From an uncultured Clostridia bacterium (GTDB taxonomy: Bacteria; Bacillota; Clostridia; Oscillospirales; Acutalibacteraceae): a DNA stretch of 64,000 nt. The notes below the pieces were generated by a model, which was given only the letters and a program-made list of their open reading frames with translations, was not told the DNA's origin and made no database searches. This document shows positions 5,812 to 29,646 of this stretch, one piece after another; position 1 is the first letter of the stretch; each line of letters starts with the position of its first letter. Location: NCBI GenBank assembly GCA_944384855.1, contig CALWUY010000065.1, forward strand, positions 23,267 to 87,266, in the 5' to 3' direction. Both the position numbers and the translations under genes were made by a program.

Positions 5812-6285
5812 CTATTTTGAAATATCAATAACTTTAAGTTTAAATTCGCCGCCCGGCGCTTCTACTATAACTTCGTCTCCTATTTTCTTTCCTAAAAGCG
5901 CTTTGCCTACAGGAGACTCATCCGATATAAGTCCCGCTCTCGGATCAGCTTCGGTAGATCCTACAACACGATATTCGCTTTCATCACCGTATTCGCAGTC
6001 GAGTACTTTAACCTTAACGCCGATTATTACGGATTTTGCTTTGCCTTTCACATCTTCAATAATTTCAACGTTTTTAAGCATTGCTTCTATCTCTACGATA
6101 CGGGCTTCGATTTTTGCCTGTTCGTTTTTCGCTTCATCATATTCGCTGTTTTCAGACAGATCTCCGTAACCGCGTGCAGTCTTGATTTTTTCTGCTATGT
6201 CGGCACGTCCCTGTGTTTTAAGAATCTCAAGTTCCTCCTGAAGTTTTTTCAGACCGTCATCGGTAATTTTGATAGTTTTAGCCAT
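5812..6285 (-). CDS. greA: Transcription elongation factor GreA
   Basis: At 157 residues it has the normal GreA length. Residues 1-75 form the antiparallel coiled coil that enters the RNA polymerase secondary channel, with the acidic tip in [16 protein letters not shown]. Residues 85-157 form the FKBP-like domain, including the conserved [16 protein letters not shown]. GreA stimulates cleavage of backtracked transcripts so that stalled polymerase can resume. It is the first gene of a greA-lysS operon under a consensus promoter. Confidence 0.97.
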
Positions 6286-6359
6286 TAAAAAAACCCACCC
6301 TTATCCGTTAATATGATTTTTTCTCATAAATATATCTATTGCAGAGTCATATAAAATAT

Positions 6360-6388
6360 ATTATATATTTTTATAATTAATATGTCAA
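6360..6388 (-). promoter_or_regulatory. Consensus sigma-70 promoter of greA-lysS
   Basis: TTGACA (6388-6383), 17 bases, TATAAT (6365-6360) on the minus strand, about 75 bases before the greA start. Both hexamers are perfect, fitting strong constitutive expression. Confidence 0.85.
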
Positions 6389-6492
6389 GGCTTAACTGCG
6401 GTATATTTTTGTACTTATTTTTTATAATTAATGTTGATATATTCCCGAAACTATTATATAATTATTTGGTAAAACTGCTTTTGAGGTTGATT

Positions 6493-7374
6493 ATGAAAAA
6501 TTTAATTGTTAATATTTTCAAAACCCTTTTCTTTTTTGATGCCGCAGTAATCGTGTTATCACTTCTGCCGGTAATTCAAAATTCCAATCCCGCATTGGCA
6601 AAGCTTATTTCAGAAGCATTAGTGCTGGCGGTAACAGTAATTTTCACTTTTGTCTTTTTAAGATTCGTTGAAAAAAACAAACTGAAATTTCCTTACGGCA
6701 AAAAGAAAGTAAAGCTTTTTTTTACGGGCTTTGGGGCCGGAGCTGTTATTCCGATAGCTTATATAGCCATTTTAGCCGCAACCAAAGATTTGAATTTTAT
6801 AGGATTCAATAAAATAGATCATGCTTATTATTGGATATTGGCATTGCTTTGCAACGCAATATCATCTGAGCTGCTTTTCAGAGGTTACCTGTTTTTATTA
6901 TATAAAAAATATTACGGGTTCACTTTCGCCGCCTTTGTGACAACCTTGCTTTTCTTATCTATGAATCTTAAACTATTTTCCATGGATACAAAATATATCA
7001 TCAATATTATACTTTTTAATATTCTGCTTTGTTTTCTTCTTGAGTTTTCAAACTCCGTTGTTGTTACAATAACCGCCCGCTTTGTTTACACCCTGCTCAG
7101 TACTTTCGTAATCGGAAGTCTTCCCTTGACCGAAGGATTTCCGGTATTGCTTAACCGAACATTTTCAGAAAATAAATATATGGTCGGTGAACCGTTTCCG
7201 ATAGAAAGCAGTACCCTTATTACACTGCTTATCATCTTTATTACCGTTTTATTTATTATTAAAAAATATCACCCGGTCAGACAGTTAAAAAAGCTTAATC
7301 AATATATTAAAAGCCGCCGCGGAAAAAAGCAGTATAAGCAAAATGTACGGTCACACAGGAAAATACGCAGTTAA
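6493..7374 (+). CDS. CPBP-type (Abi/CAAX) membrane protein with degenerate active site
   Basis: A 293-residue protein with about eight hydrophobic segments. The SSELLFRGYLFLLY segment (near residue 125) is recognisably the first motif of the CPBP intramembrane protease family, normally EExxxR. Here one Glu is replaced by Ser, the second-motif His appears to be Asn (LFLSMNL), and the third-motif His appears to be Arg (TITARFVYT). It may be a non-catalytic relative. The C-terminus is a very basic tail (about 35 residues). The ATG at 6493 has GAGG six bases upstream; longer reading frames lack a ribosome site. No immunity or bacteriocin genes are nearby. Confidence 0.65.
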   Translation: MKNLIVNIFKTLFFFDAAVIVLSLLPVIQNSNPALAKLISEALVLAVTVIFTFVFLRFVEKNKLKFPYGKKKVKLFFTGFGAGAVIPIAYIAILAATKDLNFIGFNKIDHAYYWILALLCNAISSELLFRGYLFLLYKKYYGFTFAAFVTTLLFLSMNLKLFSMDTKYIINIILFNILLCFLLEFSNSVVVTITARFVYTLLSTFVIGSLPLTEGFPVLLNRTFSENKYMVGEPFPIESSTLITLLIIFITVLFIIKKYHPVRQLKKLNQYIKSRRGKKQYKQNVRSHRKIRS

Positions 7375-7512
7375 ATAACCCTACGTAAAAACATTATTCA
7401 GGTATGCATTGATTTTTATCAGTATTGTAATTTCAAAATTTGTTGCTTATATGATTTCATCGGCATTCTGCAGTCAATCATAAAAAACATCAGATTACAG
7501 GAGTGTGATACT

Positions 7513-8613
7513 ATGACAAATACAGAATGGTTCGCAAGCAGAAAATGGGGGATTTTTACACACTGTTTTCACTTCGGAAATGATAATTTTATCAAATCCC
7601 GGGGAGGACCTGTCCCTGAGTACAACGAATTCATTAATAACTTTGATACAGAAAAATTTGCAAGAGCGCTTAATGAAACTAACTGCGGCTACCTGATTTT
7701 CACTATGGGACAATGTCAGAAACACTGGTGCGCGCCGAACGAAAATTTCAACCGCATTACCGGTTACCGTACCGGAGAAGCTTGTTCTGAAAGAGACCTG
7801 ATAAATGATTTGCTGGATTCGCTCGAAAAATATGGCATACCGTTATTTTTGTACTTTACCGGCGACGGTCCGTGCGCTGACACTCAGGCGGGAAAAGCAA
7901 TGGGATTTTGTCCTGACGGCACTATAGAAGGGCGGCAGTATATAACCGAAAAATTCATTAAAAACTGGGGATCGGTCCTCAAAGAATACAGCCTGCGTTA
8001 CGGAAACAGAGTAAAAGGCTGGTGGTTTGACGGATGCTATGATTTCTACGGATATACGGATGAGTTTTTAAACGAACTGAAAAAATGTGCCAGAGCGGGA
8101 AATCCGGACGCACTCTGCGCATTCAACAACGGAACTGAAAACAAGAACTATAATAACCCCAGATTTGCTCACTTAATCAATCAGAATGACCATTCGATAA
8201 CAAAAATGGAAAAGATAGAGCAGGCGTTTATTGACGGTATCATTGACGACAGCGGATATATGAACCGCGATATTGAAACCCAGTGGCGTGAAGCGGACGA
8301 TTTCACTGCCGGAGAGCGGACTGAATTTTCACAGCTGCCTGAAAGTGATAACCATAAACGCCTTTGGCATATCCTCTCTTTCCTGGGGCAGCTGCAATCT
8401 CAAAACAGCCCCAGACCTAAATATCTTCCTAACGGCAGCGGCTGGGCCGCCTGCGGTTCAAGATACAGCGGTGACTATATGCGCGATTATGTCAATGCCG
8501 TAAACGCTAAAAACGGCATTGTAACGATAGATATCGCCATATTTGATGACGCTACTTTTGATTTGGGACAAATTGAGGTTTTGAAAAAATTAAAAGACAT
8601 TCGCAATAAATAA
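7513..8613 (+). CDS. GH29-like alpha-L-fucosidase family protein (cytoplasmic)
   Basis: A 366-residue protein with the (beta/alpha)8 layout of GH29 fucosidases. It opens with WFASRKWGIFTHCFHF, like the GH29 start where substrate-binding Trp and His lie, and contains NRVKGWWFDGCYDF near residue 175, where the Asp matches the GH29 nucleophile position. No signal peptide is visible, so it would act in the cytoplasm on imported sugars. It lacks a clear C-terminal beta-sandwich and is shorter than classical GH29 enzymes. AGGAG precedes the ATG and a strong terminator follows, so it is monocistronic. Fold assignment is fairly secure; fucose specificity is not proven. Confidence 0.75.
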   Translation: MTNTEWFASRKWGIFTHCFHFGNDNFIKSRGGPVPEYNEFINNFDTEKFARALNETNCGYLIFTMGQCQKHWCAPNENFNRITGYRTGEACSERDLINDLLDSLEKYGIPLFLYFTGDGPCADTQAGKAMGFCPDGTIEGRQYITEKFIKNWGSVLKEYSLRYGNRVKGWWFDGCYDFYGYTDEFLNELKKCARAGNPDALCAFNNGTENKNYNNPRFAHLINQNDHSITKMEKIEQAFIDGIIDDSGYMNRDIETQWREADDFTAGERTEFSQLPESDNHKRLWHILSFLGQLQSQNSPRPKYLPNGSGWAACGSRYSGDYMRDYVNAVNAKNGIVTIDIAIFDDATFDLGQIEVLKKLKDIRNK

Positions 8614-17097: not shown

Positions 17098-18522
17098 ATG
17101 GATAAAAACTTAAGAAAAACTAAAATCGTATGTACTTTAGGACCTGCCTGCGAAAGTGAGGAAACAGTTACGCAAATGTGCCTTGCAGGCATGAACGTAG
17201 CACGTATGAATTTTTCGCATAACACTCATGAGGACCATGAGAAAAGGATAAATACCGTAAAACGCGTACGTGAAAAATTAGGCCTTCCAATAGCCGTATT
17301 GCTGGATACTAAAGGACCTGAATACCGCATAAAAACGTTTAAGGACGGTAAAATTTTTCTCAAAGACGGCGACAATTTTTCCTTCACTGTCGAAGATATC
17401 GAAGGTGATAATACCAGAGTCTCCGTAAACTACAAAGGCCTTCCCGGCGAACTGGAAAAAGGAGACAGAATACTGCTCAATAACGGTCTTCTGGCTTTTA
17501 CCGTAATGTCTACCACCGATACGGACGTTAACTGCAGAGTGGATATCGGGGGAGAACTTTCAAACAGAAAAAGTATGAGTTTCCCAAACAAGACTTTAAA
17601 GCAAGTATATTTAAGCGAACAGGATAAAGAGGATATTTTATTCGGCATTAAGCATGATGTCGATTTTATAGCATGCTCGTTTGTATCTTGCCGCCAGGAC
17701 CTGATTGACGTAAAGCGGTTTTTAGAGGCTAATAATGCCGGCCACATAGATATTATTGCAAAAATCGAAAACCGTTCGGGCGTCAACAACATTGAAGAAA
17801 TATGCGAAGAATGCGACGGCATAATGATTGCCAGAGGAGATATGGGAGTTGAAATCCCGTTTGAAGAGCTTCCGGCTATACAAAAGCAGCTTATAACCAA
17901 GTGCAGACTGCTCGGCAAAAGGGTAATTACAGCTACCGAAATGCTGGAGTCAATGATTTATAATCCGCGTCCTACGAGAGCGGAAATCTCCGATGTCGCA
18001 AATGCAGTATTCGACGGTACCAGCGCAATAATGCTGTCGGGTGAAACAGCCGCAGGCAAATATCCGGTACAAGCCGTAGAGGTTATGGCGAGAATAGCTT
18101 TTGACGCAGAACAGAATATTCACTACCGCAAGCGTTTTCTTAATTATTCGTTCAAAATAAAGAATACAGTCGACGCTATTTCACACGCCACCTGCGGAAT
18201 GGCTATTGATATTGATGCAAAAGTTATAACGGTATGTTCGCTTTCGGGCATGACCGCGAGAATGGTATCGCGTTTTCGTCCCGACGCTCCGCTCATAGGA
18301 CTTACCGCCGATGAGCGCACCTGGCGTGAACTTTCGCTTTCTTGGGGAGTAATCCCGGTTTTATGCGAAACATTTACTTCTACCGACGCTCTGTTTGAAA
18401 CAGCGGTAAAGCTCACAAAAGAAACTCTCGGTCTTAAAAGCGGTGACAAAATAGTTATAACGGGAGGAGAAACTTCCGGCAAATCAGGAAACACCAATAT
18501 TATAAAAGTAGAATATATTTAG
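17098..18522 (+). CDS. pyk: Pyruvate kinase
   Basis: A 474-residue pyruvate kinase, making pyruvate and ATP from PEP and ADP. Visible are the N-terminal KIVCTLGPACES, the catalytic segment GIMIARGDMGVEIPFEELP, and the signature ITATEMLESMI. A short C-terminal effector domain is present; the extra PEP-utiliser domain of Bacillus-type enzymes is absent. It lies 135 bases after malQ, so glucan breakdown and lower glycolysis are neighbours, and it is followed after 12 bases by a flippase gene whose ribosome site begins in its stop region. Confidence 0.96.
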   Translation: MDKNLRKTKIVCTLGPACESEETVTQMCLAGMNVARMNFSHNTHEDHEKRINTVKRVREKLGLPIAVLLDTKGPEYRIKTFKDGKIFLKDGDNFSFTVEDIEGDNTRVSVNYKGLPGELEKGDRILLNNGLLAFTVMSTTDTDVNCRVDIGGELSNRKSMSFPNKTLKQVYLSEQDKEDILFGIKHDVDFIACSFVSCRQDLIDVKRFLEANNAGHIDIIAKIENRSGVNNIEEICEECDGIMIARGDMGVEIPFEELPAIQKQLITKCRLLGKRVITATEMLESMIYNPRPTRAEISDVANAVFDGTSAIMLSGETAAGKYPVQAVEVMARIAFDAEQNIHYRKRFLNYSFKIKNTVDAISHATCGMAIDIDAKVITVCSLSGMTARMVSRFRPDAPLIGLTADERTWRELSLSWGVIPVLCETFTSTDALFETAVKLTKETLGLKSGDKIVITGGETSGKSGNTNIIKVEYI

Positions 18523-18534
18523 GAGGTTTGGTAT

Positions 18535-19950
18535 TTGAAAAACAAATATACCACCTTGATTTCCAATACGCTGCTTATAAGTATAGGAACTTTCGGGTCA
18601 AAACTGCTCGTATTCTTCATGGTAAGATTCTATACAGACTATCTTACCACATCGCAATACGGCACTGCCGACCTTATAACTCAGACCGCAAATCTTCTCT
18701 TCCCTATAATTTCTTTCGGTATTACAGAAGGGGTATTCCGTTTCGCCCTTGATGCCGAAAGAGACCGGAAAAGTATTTTTACCATAAGCTTTTCGGTAAT
18801 TACCGCAGGCTCTCTTTTGTTTACGGTTATCGCTCCGCTGCTAAATCTGATAAATGATTTTAAAAATTATGTATGGCTGATAATTGTATATACACTTGCT
18901 GCCTGTTACCATGCGCTCTGTTCTCAGTACATACGCGCAATAGGAAAGACTGCCTTTTTTGCGGTTCAGGGTATTATCAATACAATGCTCGTCATTATTC
19001 TTAACATCATCTTCCTGGCTTTTTGCAATATGGGAATATCAGGATATGTGCTTTCGGTAGTATTGGCCGATGCGTTTTGCGCCCTGCTTATTTTCATAAA
19101 AGAAAAGCTGTGGAAACTGTTGACCCGCAATATACAGAAATCAGACTTTACGGCAATGCTGAAATACAGCATTCCCCTGATACCCACAACGGTATTCTGG
19201 TGGATAACAAGCGTTTCGGACAGATACATGGTCAGAGGGTTTATAGGAAGTGAAGCTAACGGAATTTATGCGGTTTCATATAAGCTCCCTACTCTGCTTA
19301 CGCTGGCTTCAACTGTTTTTATGCAGGCATGGCAGTTTTCAGCCGTTACCGAATCGGACGGAGACCCTAAAGAACATGCTAAATTTTTCAGCACAGTCTG
19401 GGGATCGTTTCAGTCGGTAATGTTTCTTGTAGGTTCTGCGGTCATTGTATTCGCAAAGCCCGCTATGAAGATACTTACAACTCCGGATTTCTATGAAGCA
19501 TGGAAATATGTACCCCTGCTTTCGGTAGCCATGATATTTACCTCGTTTACTAATTTTGCAGGAACTGTTTATGTTGTCAATAAAAAAAGCAATATTTCCT
19601 TTCTTACCGCATTAGTCGGAGCTGTTACCAATATTATACTGAATTTTTTGCTAATCCCTTCTCCGCTCGGAGTTCAGGGCGCGGCACTGGCAACTGTTGC
19701 CGGTTATCTGCTGGCGTTCATCATAAGGGCGGCCATAGCCAGAAAATATATTCCGTTTGATCTGCACAGTATGCATATTACTGTCAATACTGTCATAATT
19801 TTTGTTCAGACAGCTATAATGATTTTTGAGATCAAATATTGGTTAGTTATTGAGATTCTGCTTCTTATATTACTGGCGGCAATCAATCTGAAATTTATTA
19901 TGGGATTCATTAACAAATTTTTGCACTCGGTTATCAAAAAAAGAACTTGA
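18535..19950 (+). CDS. Polysaccharide flippase, Wzx/MATE-like (MVF superfamily)
   Basis: A 471-residue membrane protein with about 12-14 transmembrane segments. The N-terminal SNTLLISIGTFGSKLLVFF and YGTADLITQTANLL are typical of the polysaccharide-synthesis (RfbX/Wzx) branch, which moves lipid-linked sugar units across the membrane. Start is TTG at 18535 after a strong AGGAGG. It is co-transcribed with pyk, which is odd for a flippase. No glycosyltransferases are adjacent, so the cargo cannot be inferred. The capsule regulators at 54-57 kb are a possible functional partner but are far away. Confidence 0.82.
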   Translation: MKNKYTTLISNTLLISIGTFGSKLLVFFMVRFYTDYLTTSQYGTADLITQTANLLFPIISFGITEGVFRFALDAERDRKSIFTISFSVITAGSLLFTVIAPLLNLINDFKNYVWLIIVYTLAACYHALCSQYIRAIGKTAFFAVQGIINTMLVIILNIIFLAFCNMGISGYVLSVVLADAFCALLIFIKEKLWKLLTRNIQKSDFTAMLKYSIPLIPTTVFWWITSVSDRYMVRGFIGSEANGIYAVSYKLPTLLTLASTVFMQAWQFSAVTESDGDPKEHAKFFSTVWGSFQSVMFLVGSAVIVFAKPAMKILTTPDFYEAWKYVPLLSVAMIFTSFTNFAGTVYVVNKKSNISFLTALVGAVTNIILNFLLIPSPLGVQGAALATVAGYLLAFIIRAAIARKYIPFDLHSMHITVNTVIIFVQTAIMIFEIKYWLVIEILLLILLAAINLKFIMGFINKFLHSVIKKRT

Positions 19951-20041
19951 CAATTATTTGCTGCGCTTTCTATGTAAATTTTAATTTGCTGTTTTTGGCT
20001 GTATTGAAATTATTTTAATAAAAACAAACGTAAATTCGTCC

Positions 20042-20113
20042 TTTTTTGCAACTTTTAGTTGCGAAAAACTCAAATTAAAGTTGGTGGATAGCAGCCTGAA
20101 CAATTGATATAAT
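20042..20113 (+). promoter_or_regulatory. Promoter and palindrome upstream of the HTH-GlmM fusion
   Basis: A TATAAT at 20108-20113 has a weak -35 (TGGATA, 20085-20090) 17 bases upstream. A near-perfect inverted repeat, TTTTTGCAACT-TTT-AGTTGCGAAAAA (about 20042-20067), lies just upstream of the -35 box. It is a candidate binding site for the HTH domain of the gene it precedes. Confidence 0.5.
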
Positions 20114-20156
20114 AATTATTGTCAAAAATACAGCAACGAAAGGATATTGTTTTATT

Positions 20157-21776
20157 ATGACGATCGGTGAAAAAATTGCAAAACTTCGCATAGCAGCAGA
20201 TATTTCTCAGGAACAGTTAGCCGAAAAAATTTCAGTTTCGCGCCAGTCAGTTTCAAAATGGGAAATGGATCAGGCGCTTCCTCAAATAGACAAAGTTCTT
20301 CAAATCTGCGAATTATTCGATATTACAACAGACGAACTTTTGCATGATAAAATCTCAATAGACCGTATTGAACCGGAATCAGACGGAAATAAATATTTCG
20401 GCACTGACGGTTTCAGAGGCGAAGCCAATATAACTCTGACATCTATGCAGGCCTACCGTGTAGGCAGATTTTTGGGATGGTATTTTTCTTCCGAACTTTC
20501 CGGATGCAATAAACCGGGATACCGCCCGCGCATAGTAATCGGCAAGGATACAAGGCGTTCAAGCTATATGCTGGAATATTCTATTGTGGCCGGTATAACC
20601 GCTTCAGGAGCAGACGCCTATATGCTTCACGTTACCACCACGCCCAGTGTTTCTTTCGTAACCCGCCAGGATGAGTTTGACTGCGGAATCATGATAACCG
20701 CATCTCACAATCCGTTTTATGATAACGGAATAAAGGTCATCAACCGTTACGGGGAAAAACTTGACGATAATACCACCGCGCTTATCGAAGCTTATATTGA
20801 CGGAAATCTCAAAGCCTTAGGGGTAAACGGCGCAGACCTTCCGCTTGCAGTACGGGACCGTATAGGCTGTATAGTGGACTATGTTGCGGGCAGAAACCGC
20901 TATGTGGGTTATTTGATTTCAGTAGCGTCAAATTCCTACAAAAATCTCAGAATAGGCCTTGACTGTGCAAACGGAGCGTCCTGGCAGATCGCAAAATCCG
21001 TTTTTGACGCATTGGGCGCTCAGACTACGATTATAGGAAACCAGCCTGACGGTCTTAATGTCAATCAGGACTGCGGGTCTACGCACATCGCAAAACTTTG
21101 CCAGCTGGTTAAAGATCAGCACCTCGATATAGGTTTTGCCTTTGACGGAGATACCGACCGCTGTATAGCCGTAGACGAAAACGGAAATGTGGTCGACGGC
21201 GACGCTATGATGTACATTCTAGCCAAACGGCTGAAATCACGCGGAATGCTTAATAAAGATACTGTGGTTGCCACAATTATGTCCAACAGCGGCTTTTTCA
21301 ATTCGCTCGCGGAAGCAGGAATCAAATGCGAGCAAACCACTGTCGGAGACCGCTTTGTTTACGAGTGTATGCAGAATAACGATTATTCGCTCGGCGGAGA
21401 ACAGTCAGGGCATATCATTCTTAAAAAATATGCCACCACCGGAGACGGTCTTCTGACGGCTATTATGATCACCGAAGAAATCTGCGACCGCAAGACCTCG
21501 CTTGCAAGCCTTGCGGAACCTGTTAAGCTTTATCCCCAGTACACCAAAAATATAAGGGTCAAAGATAAAGCGGCCGTGCTCTCAGACAAAGATGTTTTAA
21601 ATGCCAAAGACGAGGTTGAAAAACTCATCAATAAAAAGGGACGCGCACTGCTAAGGCAGAGCGGTACAGAACCGGTAATACGCATAATGATAGAAAGCGA
21701 AAGCGACGATTTATGCCGTAAGTACGCTGATATCATCGCAGATGCAGTTATAAAAAACGGTCACTGCGCAAATTAA
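20157..21776 (+). CDS. glmM: XRE-type HTH fused to phosphoglucosamine mutase
   Basis: A 539-residue fusion. Residues 5-60 are a Cro/C1-type HTH (DISQEQLAEKISVSRQSVSKW). From about 79 the rest is a complete alpha-D-phosphohexomutase of GlmM/ManB type: KYFGTDGFRGEA, catalytic Ser183 in TASHNP, Mg2+-binding DGDTDR (330-335), sugar-binding GGEQSGH (413-419) and phosphate-binding RQSGTEPVIR (500-509). All catalytic residues are intact. GlmM converts glucosamine-6-P to glucosamine-1-P for UDP-GlcNAc. The next gene is nagB, which consumes the same substrate in the opposite direction. The HTH could let the enzyme sense its substrate and control transcription. ManB activity is an alternative. One continuous frame with one ribosome site argues against an error. 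Confidence 0.9.
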   Translation: MTIGEKIAKLRIAADISQEQLAEKISVSRQSVSKWEMDQALPQIDKVLQICELFDITTDELLHDKISIDRIEPESDGNKYFGTDGFRGEANITLTSMQAYRVGRFLGWYFSSELSGCNKPGYRPRIVIGKDTRRSSYMLEYSIVAGITASGADAYMLHVTTTPSVSFVTRQDEFDCGIMITASHNPFYDNGIKVINRYGEKLDDNTTALIEAYIDGNLKALGVNGADLPLAVRDRIGCIVDYVAGRNRYVGYLISVASNSYKNLRIGLDCANGASWQIAKSVFDALGAQTTIIGNQPDGLNVNQDCGSTHIAKLCQLVKDQHLDIGFAFDGDTDRCIAVDENGNVVDGDAMMYILAKRLKSRGMLNKDTVVATIMSNSGFFNSLAEAGIKCEQTTVGDRFVYECMQNNDYSLGGEQSGHIILKKYATTGDGLLTAIMITEEICDRKTSLASLAEPVKLYPQYTKNIRVKDKAAVLSDKDVLNAKDEVEKLINKKGRALLRQSGTEPVIRIMIESESDDLCRKYADIIADAVIKNGHCAN

Positions 21777-21836
21777 GATTGCTAAAATAAATATCTTATG
21801 ATAAAATAGACGTAAAAAGTTTGAAAAGGTGATTTT

Positions 21837-22547
21837 ATGAATTTCATTAAAGTAGATTCTTATGAACGATTAAGCAAAATAGCAGCTGATATTATTGCCG
21901 CTCAGGTTATCCTTAAGCCTGACTGTGTATTAGGTTTGGCAACCGGATCATCTCCGCTCGGTACTTACGCCAACCTTGCGGAAAAATGTCAAAAAGGTGA
22001 ACTGGATTTTTCAAAAGTCACATCGGTAAACCTTGATGAATATGTGGGTCTTGACTCCGGCAACGATCAGAGCTACCGTTACTTTATGAATAAAAATCTT
22101 TTCACAAAAATAAACATTGATATTAATAACACCAATGTTCCCAACGGCTGCGCGGATGATATAGAAGCCGAATGCCTCCGTTACGATAAACTGATTGAAT
22201 CTCTGGGCGGTATTGATTTACAGCTTTTGGGCATAGGACTTGACGGTCATATAGGATTTAACGAACCCGGAGATAAATTTATCAAAGGCACAAACCTTGT
22301 TACTCTTGACCCATCTACAATTGAAGCCAACTCACGCTTTTTTGCTTCGGTTGACGATGTGCCCACCAAGGCGGTTACAATGGGTATGGGAGCAATTATG
22401 TCGGCTAAAAAGGTTTTGCTTATAGCGAATGGAAAAAACAAGAAAGAAATTGTTGAAAAGTCATTCTTCGGACCTATAACTCCTTATGTTCCGGCTTCAA
22501 TTCTCCAGCTTCATAATGATCTTACCGTAATTTACAGTGAAAATTAA
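21837..22547 (+). CDS. nagB: Glucosamine-6-phosphate deaminase
   Basis: A 236-residue NagB, shorter than the 266-residue E. coli enzyme and like the Bacillus forms. It converts glucosamine-6-P to fructose-6-P and ammonia. Motifs include the phosphate loop GLATGSSPLGTY, NLDEYVGL, and GIGLDGHIGFNEPG with the ring-opening His. It follows the HTH-GlmM gene by 60 bases with an AAAGGTG ribosome site, and no terminator separates them, so both ends of the glucosamine-6-P branch point appear co-transcribed. No nagA is present in the window. Confidence 0.96.
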   Translation: MNFIKVDSYERLSKIAADIIAAQVILKPDCVLGLATGSSPLGTYANLAEKCQKGELDFSKVTSVNLDEYVGLDSGNDQSYRYFMNKNLFTKINIDINNTNVPNGCADDIEAECLRYDKLIESLGGIDLQLLGIGLDGHIGFNEPGDKFIKGTNLVTLDPSTIEANSRFFASVDDVPTKAVTMGMGAIMSAKKVLLIANGKNKKEIVEKSFFGPITPYVPASILQLHNDLTVIYSEN

Positions 22548-22556
22548 CCAAAATTC

Positions 22557-22594
22557 AAAACCGCAGGGATAGTTTCCTGCGGTTTTATTTTTTT
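22557..22594 (+). terminator. Terminator of nagB
   Basis: An 11-bp stem, AAAACCGCAGG with CCTGCGGTTTT, ends in an ATTTTTTTG tract, ten bases after the stop. The reverse strand also gives a T run, so it may also stop the convergent DUF3810 gene. Confidence 0.9.
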
Positions 22595-27549: not shown

Positions 27550-29496
27550 ATGATTAAGATAACTTTAAAAGACGGATCAGTAAAAGAATATCCCGAAGGT
27601 ATTACTGCCTTTGAGATAGCAAAAGATCTCAGTATGGGATTAGCCAAAAACGCCTGTGCTGCGAGAATCAACGGCAAAAATGCAGATTTGCGCACCGCAA
27701 TTACAGAAGACTGTAATTTAGAAATTCTTACATTCGACGATGAATACGGGAAGTGGACTTTCAGACATACTGCATCTCATATATTGGCGCAGGCGGTAAA
27801 GCGGATTTTTCCCGAGGCGAAGCTCGCTATAGGTCCTGCTGTGGATAACGGTTTCTATTATGACTTTGATGTAGAAACCAGCTTCACTCCCGAAGATTTA
27901 GAAAAAATTGAAGCCGAAATGAAAAAAATCGTTAAAGAAGATATAAAATTAGAGCGTTTTTCGATGTCAAGAGATGAGGCAGTCAAATATTTTGAAGACA
28001 AGAACGAGCCTTACAAGGTAGAGCTTGCAGAGGGAATTGATGACGGGGAAGAAATCTCTTTTTATAAACAGGGAGATTTCACGGATCTTTGTGCAGGAGC
28101 TCATTTAATGAGCACCTCACAGGTAAAGGCGTTCAAGCTTACCTCCGCTACCGGCGCTTACTGGCGCGGAGACTCCTCTAAAAAAATGCTCTGCCGTGTT
28201 TACGGAACGGCTTTTCCGAAAGCCAGCGAGCTTGAAGCGTATCTTAATATGCTTGAAGAAGCAAAGAAACGCGACCATAATAAGTTAGGAAGAGAGCTTG
28301 AATACTTTACAACAGTAGATATCATCGGTCAGGGACTGCCTATTTTGCTACCTAAAGGCGCCAAAGTTATCCAGATACTCCAGCGTTTTGTTGAGGACGA
28401 GGAATATAAGCGCGGCTGGCAGCTGACTAAGACCCCGTATATGGCGAAACGCGAGCTGTACAAGCTTTCGGGACACTGGGACCATTACCTTGACGGCATG
28501 TTTGTTTTAGGCGATCCGCAGGACGAAACCAAGGAATGCTTTGCCCTTCGTCCTATGACCTGCCCGTTCCAGTACCAGGCGTACCTGAACCGTGCGAGAT
28601 CATACCGTGACCTTCCTCTCAGATATAATGAGACCTCTACCCTGTTCAGAAATGAGGATTCGGGTGAAATGCACGGTCTTATAAGAGTTCGTCAGTTCAC
28701 TATTTCCGAAGGACATTTGATGTGTACGCCCGAACAGCTTGAACAGGAATTCAAATCGTGTCTTGAGCTTGCGATTTATATGCTCAAAACCTTAGGACTT
28801 TACGAAGACGTATCTTACCGTTTTTCTCAGTGGGATCCTGAGGACAGAGAAAAATATATAGGTACGGATGAACAGTGGAATGAAGCTCAGAATGTGATGT
28901 CTAAAATTCTTGATCACCTTGAAATTCCTTATAAGGTGGGAGTCGGCGAAGCGGCGTTCTACGGACCTAAGCTTGATATCCAGATAAAAAATGTTTACGG
29001 TAAAGAAGATACGCTGATAACCATACAAATAGACCAGCTTCTTGCTGAGAAATTCGGTATGGAATATGTCGACCGCGACGGCCAGAAGAAAAATCCATAC
29101 ATTATTCATCGTACTTCTATCGGATGCTACGAACGCACGCTCGCCCTGCTTATAGAAAAGTATGCCGGCGCATTCCCTCTCTGGCTGGCTCCGGTTCAGA
29201 TAAAAATTCTGCCTATCGCAGACAGGCATCTTGACTATGCTTATGAGGTCAAGTCGGCTCTTGAAGCAAAAGGCATGAGAATAGAAATCGATGACCGCAA
29301 CGAGAAAATCGGTTATAAGATCCGTGAAGCCCGGCTTCAGAAGGTTCCGTATATGCTTATTATAGGCGACAGCGAAGTAGAAAAGCGTGAAGTATCTGTC
29401 CGCAGGCGCGGAGAAGACGGAGATCTCGGCGCTATGAGCATTGACGATTTCATCTCAAGGGCGTCAGATGAAATAAACAGCAAAACCATAAATTAA
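27550..29496 (+). CDS. thrS: Threonyl-tRNA synthetase
   Basis: A 648-residue ThrRS with the usual order: TGS domain (1-62), editing domain with the HxxxH motif in RHTASHILAQAVKRIFP, a class II catalytic core with motif 2 (FRNEDSGEMHGLIRVRQFT) and motif 3 (SIGCYERTLALLIEKY), and the anticodon-binding domain from about 545 (LAPVQIKILPI). The ATG at 27550 follows CGGAGG directly after the T-box terminator; a longer frame through the leader is not real. Expression should respond to Thr charging. Confidence 0.97.
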   Translation: MIKITLKDGSVKEYPEGITAFEIAKDLSMGLAKNACAARINGKNADLRTAITEDCNLEILTFDDEYGKWTFRHTASHILAQAVKRIFPEAKLAIGPAVDNGFYYDFDVETSFTPEDLEKIEAEMKKIVKEDIKLERFSMSRDEAVKYFEDKNEPYKVELAEGIDDGEEISFYKQGDFTDLCAGAHLMSTSQVKAFKLTSATGAYWRGDSSKKMLCRVYGTAFPKASELEAYLNMLEEAKKRDHNKLGRELEYFTTVDIIGQGLPILLPKGAKVIQILQRFVEDEEYKRGWQLTKTPYMAKRELYKLSGHWDHYLDGMFVLGDPQDETKECFALRPMTCPFQYQAYLNRARSYRDLPLRYNETSTLFRNEDSGEMHGLIRVRQFTISEGHLMCTPEQLEQEFKSCLELAIYMLKTLGLYEDVSYRFSQWDPEDREKYIGTDEQWNEAQNVMSKILDHLEIPYKVGVGEAAFYGPKLDIQIKNVYGKEDTLITIQIDQLLAEKFGMEYVDRDGQKKNPYIIHRTSIGCYERTLALLIEKYAGAFPLWLAPVQIKILPIADRHLDYAYEVKSALEAKGMRIEIDDRNEKIGYKIREARLQKVPYMLIIGDSEVEKREVSVRRRGEDGDLGAMSIDDFISRASDEINSKTIN

Positions 29497-29513
29497 TATA
29501 ATATCTAATTAAC

Positions 29514-29550
29514 AAGCAGAGACAGCAAAAACTGTCTCTGCTTTTGTTAT
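29514..29550 (+). terminator. Terminator of thrS
   Basis: A 12-bp stem, AAGCAGAGACAG (29514-29525) with CTGTCTCTGCTT (29532-29543), then TTTGTTATTTT. Confidence 0.9.
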
Positions 29551-29646
29551 TTTATAATTTATATAATTTTTTTGATTTCCGTTATGCTCAGGAAAGCCTT
29601 TGAATAATTTTTATCCGATATGCAACTATATTTACTGCCGCCTTTT

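Follow-up and report, generated by a model that had tools for sequence, protein, structure and literature searches.

A putative operator conserved upstream of a helix-turn-helix-fused phosphoglucosamine mutase gene points to autoregulation in an uncultured Clostridia bacterium and its relatives

The window analyzed in this work is the whole 64,000-nucleotide stretch of DNA from an uncultured Clostridia bacterium of the family Acutalibacteraceae (GenBank assembly GCA_944384855.1, contig CALWUY010000065.1, positions 23,267 to 87,266 of the forward strand). It contains HTH-glmM, a gene on the plus strand (20157..21776) that encodes, in a single uninterrupted frame, a protein of 539 amino acids made of a Cro/C1-type helix-turn-helix (HTH) domain (residues 1-63; 20157..20345), a linker (residues 64-78; 20346..20390) and the catalytic domains I-IV of the phosphoglucosamine mutase GlmM (residues 79-531; 20391..21749). 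The gene is preceded by a promoter, TGGATA-17-TATAAT, with an extended -10 element and a 10/12 match to the consensus (20085..20113, plus strand), and by P1, GCAACTTTTAGTTGC (20048..20062), a palindrome that constitutes the main putative operator. A first-pass annotation of this DNA had described an intact Cro/C1 HTH joined in frame to a complete GlmM with Ser183, DGDTDR and RQSGTEP, together with a near-perfect palindrome upstream of the promoter; the fusion was confirmed by the open reading frame, Pfam and NCBIfam, and the palindrome lies where it was announced. Our analysis indicates that HTH-GlmM is very probably bifunctional, acting both as the GlmM of the cell and as a dedicated transcription factor that controls its own operon through P1.

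The Pfam HTH_3 model matched residues 7-61 with 51.7 bits (gathering cut-off 23), all four PGM_PMM domains scored above their gathering values within residues 79-529, and the NCBIfam glmM equivalog TIGR01455 covered residues 81-531 with 486.4 bits (cut-off 447.55). The protein carries the GlmM motifs TASHNP with Ser183, FAFDGDTDR and LLRQSGTEP, which provide the active-site serine, the metal-binding DGD and the phosphate-binding SGTEP loop, respectively; S183, D330-G-D332, D334-R335 and S502-G-T-E-P506 were invariant across 50 fused proteins. An AlphaFold2 model built on a 50-sequence alignment comprised the HTH, the linker and the mutase domains with a mean predicted local distance difference test (pLDDT) score of 87.1, falling below 50 at linker residues 71-76. 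The top five Foldseek matches of this model were GlmM structures of Staphylococcus aureus, Bacillus subtilis and Bacillus anthracis (target TM 0.89-0.95). The solved enzymes (6gyz, 7ojr and 3pdk, respectively) share its fold and motifs at 43-44% identity and match it only from residue ~75 on, and hence are devoid of the HTH. No second GlmM was found in the own genome of the window (97% complete) at an E-value of 1e-60 or better, the next-best mutase-domain matches being only 27-28% identical, and this condition of sole detected GlmM supports the function of the fused protein as the cell's mutase. In the modeled HTH five helices were recognized (residues 3-13, 18-24, 29-36, 44-53 and 58-62), of which residues 29-36, RQSVSKWE, likely represent the recognition helix; R29, Q30, S33, W35 and E36 were unchanged in 50/50 sequences. 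Purifying selection on the HTH was indicated by the ratio of non-synonymous to synonymous substitutions (dN/dS), which ranged from 0.02 to 0.30 among the pairs for which dS was finite (13 of 20; the pairs are not independent of each other).

The distribution of the fusion was studied in 70 genomes of the same genus (the own genome of the window is designated G000), in which GlmM and GlmS were called at E-values of 1e-60 and 1e-100, respectively; the GlmS search was positive in 14/14 control genomes. A scan of species genomes kept the best 80 of 580 loci, so that the compared loci are a capped sample; to these were added the loci of a second search and that of the window, and once 5 duplicates had been removed the set contained 72 fused loci, all distinct, and 29 without the fusion, overlapping the genus genomes. 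HTH-glmM was present in 34 of the 70 genus genomes, split across two contigs in G061, truncated by the contig end in G078 and accompanied by an extra unfused copy in one genome. The other 36 contained a near relative lacking the HTH (16 genomes; 53-75% identity), an ordinary GlmM (12 genomes; 39-42%) or none at the above threshold (8 genomes). Fused loci were found in Clostridia and in a branch labelled Erysipelotrichaceae, Bacillales, Bacilli, Acholeplasmatales and, once, Clostridia, referred to below as the Bacilli branch. Among 398 genomes of the phylum, 11 matches were obtained at 1e-130, the only fused one being that of the window; five of the ten others were read and all were unfused. 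A search for homologues, with their absence taken as the sign of an accident, had been put forward in the first-pass annotation; many turned up, and the 34/70 genus genomes together with the 72 distinct fused loci rule out an assembly accident or a local fusion. A mobile-element origin found no backing, as the 5 plasmid matches shown out of 69 were all unfused.

A quick-search tree built from 105 catalytic domains, with branch support from the SH-aLRT test only, requires three label changes and suggests one gain of the HTH followed by two losses. The gain branch, which comprises the 72 fused rows together with 8 unfused rows nested among them, had an SH-aLRT support of 82; one loss lineage corresponds to L021 alone and the other to L022, L024-L028 and L087 jointly (SH-aLRT 100). 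In G026, contig C61 harbors a fused (6214-7824) and an unfused (28248-29627) GlmM gene ~20 kb apart, the product of each being 78% identical to the window protein.

Upstream regions of 300 nt were scored for 70 fused loci (56 non-Bacilli and 14 of the Bacilli branch) and 27 unfused loci, with Markov shuffles as the background of motif counts and the reversed motif as the control pattern; L064 and L093 (fused) and L027 and L106 (unfused) were left out because their upstream sequence was too short. The core GCAACN5GTTGC was present, exact, in 51/70 fused and 0/27 unfused loci and in none of the shuffles, and the best unfused locus was one with 2 mismatches. Allowing up to 2 mismatches, the extended motif GCAACYNNNRGTTGC (GCAACYnnnRGTTGC) was found in 54 of the 56 non-Bacilli fused loci, all except L076 and L101, and in 0/27 unfused ones. 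In the two lineages that lost the HTH, the best match to P1 had 4-5 mismatches in 7/7 scorable loci (of 8); at least 3 were counted in each of the 20 scorable unfused loci that do not belong to these lineages. As both loss lineages are without P1, the HTH and the operator are absent together in two separate lineages. Furthermore, in the own genome (2.69 Mb) the exact GCAACN5GTTGC occurs once, at HTH-glmM; this single site, together with the contrast between fused and unfused loci, implies that P1 is not a product of chance, and it has the appearance of a genuine operator. The control of the operon by its own product, already proposed in the first-pass annotation, is in agreement with these counts, and autoregulation of HTH-glmM is strongly supported by the comparison of upstream regions. 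Besides its regular P1, L043 has an exact additional P1 core, contained in a 35-nt palindrome with 16-bp arms ~200 bp ahead of glmM.

A weaker second copy of the palindrome, O2 (TCAAATTAAAGTTGG; 20070..20084), is located 22 bp after P1 and ends beside the -35 box. Its motif, CAAN6GTTG, was exact in 21/56 and within one mismatch in 37/56 loci (shuffles, 0.05 and 0.76, respectively), the offset from P1 was 22 bp in 35 of the 49 loci with up to 2 mismatches, and the best -10 element began 60-62 bp from the start of P1 in 36/56 relatives. A distal palindrome, P2 (GTAAATTTTAATTTGC; 19974..19989), starts 74 bp before P1; GYAAAYN4RTTTRC was exact in 12/60 and within one mismatch in 22/60 fused loci (shuffles, 0 and 0.48). 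In these 22 loci P2 started 73-75 bp (17 loci), 84-86 bp (4 loci) or 120 bp (1 locus) before P1, and a third spacing of 64-65 bp was seen in L080, L081 and L083 with 2 mismatches, so that the spacings would mostly step by about one helical turn. P2 was also considered as the site of a global regulator and rejected: the own genome contained 8 matches against 2 of the control pattern, but 5 of the 7 others lay inside genes.

GlmM enzymes are known to be dimers. We propose that the HTH-GlmM dimer, whose reaction would convert glucosamine-6-phosphate (GlcN-6-P) to glucosamine-1-phosphate and feed peptidoglycan synthesis, presents its two Cro/C1-type HTH domains to the P1 palindrome; a second dimer would occupy the weaker O2, 22 bp on and on the same face of the DNA, adjoining the -35 box, and P2, mostly at whole-helical-turn distances, may join by looping. 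Binding would set the output of an operon for the supply of UDP-N-acetylglucosamine (UDP-GlcNAc), constituted by glmM-nagB in the window and, in relatives, often by glmM-acetyltransferase-nagB and in a few of them by glmM-glmS. Regarding the sign of this control, autorepression is moderately favoured over activation. That HTH-GlmM, on binding P1 and O2, activates its own promoter and raises GlmM when the substrate is present is rather unlikely in our estimation, even though the inferred geometry speaks for it: the centres of P1 and O2 fall at ~-65 and ~-43 from the inferred start site, the spacing to the -10 is fairly rigid, and this layout resembles the positions of OR1 and OR2 relative to the lambda PRM promoter. 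However, the -35 and -10 boxes appear fair unaided, and a phased distant P2 suits a repression loop. Moreover, in L080-L083 P1 is situated directly after the -10, a blocking position that suggests repression.

The nagB gene (21837..22547, plus strand) encodes a glucosamine-6-phosphate deaminase/isomerase of 236 amino acids (TIGR00502, 276.4 bits; cut-off 236.9) and is followed by a strong intrinsic terminator (22557..22586, plus strand) with a 13-pair stem and then a T run. Only 60 nt separate it from glmM. The co-transcription of both genes, stated in the first-pass annotation, is likely, in view of the adjacency and of a gap free of terminator-like sites; two weak promoter-like matches (9/12) are present inside this gap. 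The same annotation called for a count of the nagB neighbors, and nagB was found next to, or one gene away from, the fused glmM in 36 of the 72 loci. The gene after glmM was an acetyltransferase followed by nagB in 29 loci and an acetyltransferase with nagB not found, within 2.5 kb or the available flank, in another 29; nagB came directly in 7 (including the window), glmS in 3 (L023, L029 and L089), and none of these genes in 4. The best NCBIfam match of the acetyltransferase was TIGR03992 (137-160 bits in three proteins; the whole-protein cut-off is 292.1) and extended over roughly the C-terminal half of this model only, and Pfam Hexapep was above its cut-off in both acetyltransferases scanned; because these matches are partial and below the cut-off, besides the hexapeptide repeat, we refer to it as GlmU-C-like by inference.

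According to the first-pass annotation, HTH-GlmM would be a sensor at the branch point between biosynthesis and catabolism, with NagB deaminating GlcN-6-P in competition with the mutase. We consider this view unlikely, and its placement of nagB in a competing catabolic branch is probably wrong: the usual operon partner is the GlmU-C-like acetyltransferase, located between glmM and nagB, glmS takes the place of nagB in the three loci mentioned above, and GlmS was not detected in 18/34 fused genomes (in 10 of 21 when only those at least 90% complete are taken). NagB was present in 17 of the 18 GlmS-less genomes, the exception being G068. Three of the genomes with the three-gene operon, G001 (96% complete), G006 (97%) and G015 (83%), showed neither GlmS nor NagA. 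In the 18 GlmS-less genomes a GlmS-independent synthesis of GlcN-6-P, or else auxotrophy, is possible. The acetyltransferase context, the glmS substitution and the lack of GlmS in 18/34 genomes led us to propose that nagB may feed GlcN-6-P into the same pathway; in the GlmS-less relatives the reaction of NagB probably runs toward supply (fructose-6-phosphate + NH3 to GlcN-6-P), and in the fused clade nagB looks like a member of an apparent UDP-GlcNAc supply operon. Evidence to the contrary also exists. NagA is present in 30/34 fused genomes, including that of the window, which in addition encodes GlmS, a second complete NagB and further NagB-like genes, so that NagB may work in either direction there. 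Akkermansia likewise has no GlmS, but the NagB of this bacterium was deemed incapable of producing GlcN-6-P at physiological levels, and enzymes of the NagB type are described as mainly deaminating (PMC5902328).

Exact copies of P1 were also searched for throughout the 70 genus genomes. There were 42 sites in 38 genomes (4 for the reversed pattern), of which 23 preceded HTH-glmM, 5 other HTH genes, 1 glmS (G029) and 1 nagA (G066). The other HTH genes were in G011 and G075 and, judging by coordinates alone, in G032 and G023 (two sites). In G075 (L140) the HTH is joined to an ADP-ribosylglycohydrolase domain detected with Pfam, and the exact P1 is accompanied by a further GCAACTT half-site ~22 bp on; L128, from G011, resembles it, with the same P1 and a half-site ~22 bp on (Pfam was run on L140 only), and both genomes possess a GlmM of their own lacking the HTH. 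The own genome of the window had 11 one-mismatch sites. Ten of them are within open frames, and the remaining one lies ~85 bp upstream of a different HTH gene with the VSRQAVSKWE motif; this gene, on contig C91 (L003, L215), encodes a 329-aa protein of the same HTH subfamily, and cross-talk between it and HTH-GlmM is possible. Together, these data suggest that P1 tracks not only the enzyme but also the HTH subfamily, of which some further genes have the site. As for amino-sugar genes, P1 was exact at glmS of G029 (L119/L198) and nagA of G066 (L129), and had one mismatch at glmS of G060 (L203) and G014 (L187); some of the relatives perhaps have a small regulon for amino sugars.

Several results weigh against control of the operon by HTH-GlmM through P1. 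The palindrome is not universal, because it was missing from 9/14 scorable fused loci of the Bacilli branch and present in only 5/14. In ten loci of this branch without P1 a P2-like palindrome was found within 2 mismatches, three of them weak (only at 2), and the operator may have shifted there along with the HTH. At most pairs of loci the HTH was less constrained than the catalytic part, a comparison that excludes L092/L095, L019/L020 and L023/L030, for which the catalytic dN/dS is invalid owing to indels. Twelve of the 42 exact genus sites were elsewhere or unexamined (3 not fetched), the own genome showed no excess of P1 at up to one mismatch (12 including the exact site vs 14 reversed), and among 11 glmS genes examined in fused genomes a close P1 was present only at G060, the own glmS having none. 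With respect to P2, its layout is of 16 bp and not 15 bp, so it could be the site of another protein, and the 64-65 bp spacing depends on near-identical loci with weaker sites. Across L077-L097, of the Bacilli branch, the P2-like palindromes were mostly 65-104 bp before the start codon, with that of L088 at 150.

It is quite improbable that a separate regulator uses P1 and P2 as its operators, the fused HTH acting elsewhere or only in oligomerisation. The sites before glmS in G029 and nagA in G066 are such as a pathway regulator would have, but glmM has no such operator in either of the two HTH-loss lineages, the site also stands before some further genes coding for this HTH subfamily, and the exact site is single in the own genome. 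A hairpin of the flippase-like gene upstream, either in RNA or as a terminator, which the T- and A-tracts flanking P1 and its start 98 bp past the last base of that gene might suggest, is scarcely credible, because the identity of the bases GCAAC...GTTGC is itself conserved (1.75-2.0 bits per position) rather than replaced by compensating pair changes, the spacing of P1 to O2 and to the -10 is fairly rigid, the upstream genes vary across the 14 loci inspected, and P1 also stands before other HTH genes.

Regulation by HTH-GlmM would be tuned by an amino-sugar phosphate in the active site. GlcN-6-P is the most likely ligand, because the genomes bearing the fusion are mostly without the glmS ribozyme, the RNA element that senses this metabolite. 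The ribozyme (RF00234) was detected in 11/12 genomes with an ordinary GlmM, 1/34 fused genomes, 0/16 with near-unfused relatives and 1/8 without a detected GlmM, that is, in 13/70 genus genomes; G000 had 0 matches, 2/14 controls, including B. subtilis, were positive, and the single fused genome with the ribozyme, G072, has two glmS genes. On this basis, we tentatively entertain that HTH-GlmM replaces the glmS ribozyme, with GlmM, once it had acquired the HTH, sensing the sugar-phosphate in its active site and governing its UDP-GlcNAc operon by way of phased operators and, where GlmS was lost in parts of the clade, NagB making GlcN-6-P in ammonia-rich guts; we rate this as possible rather than probable. 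The ribozyme distribution does not by itself show such a replacement and may reflect a single evolutionary switch, since the unfused near relatives are also without it. The ribozyme and HTH-GlmM would likewise exert feedback at neighboring metabolic steps, but in the former the regulator is an RNA and not a protein.

BirA and NadR are well-known trigger enzymes. HTH-GlmM resembles them and PutA in that a DNA-binding domain is part of the same polypeptide as an intact enzyme, the combination of metabolic enzyme, own DNA-binding domain and gene control described for this class (PMC8249747). It differs from the three in fold, substrate and pathway, and in being the only GlmM detected in the genome. 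A side role already known for GlmM is the binding of CdaA, as stated in the titles of structures 7olh and 9g69. With lambda CI, HTH-GlmM would share the HTH type and the tandem palindromes about two helical turns apart by the promoter, and it differs from CI in the partner domain, which is an enzyme instead of a dimerisation or protease domain. In the search listings of one open-access library there was no apparent report of HTH-GlmM. If our proposal is correct, a key enzyme of cell wall synthesis would be linked directly, as a protein, to its own transcription in bacteria where the known ribozyme control is mostly missing; the results may also point to gut and rumen bacteria that make glucosamine-6-phosphate without GlmS. 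A single apparent gain and two apparent losses of the HTH, with the operator missing from each loss lineage, make this prediction precise and inexpensive to test.

Upstream of HTH-glmM, positions 17098-19950 of the window hold two genes, which we take to encode a pyruvate kinase-like and a polysaccharide flippase-like protein; a similar pair precedes HTH-glmM in L039.

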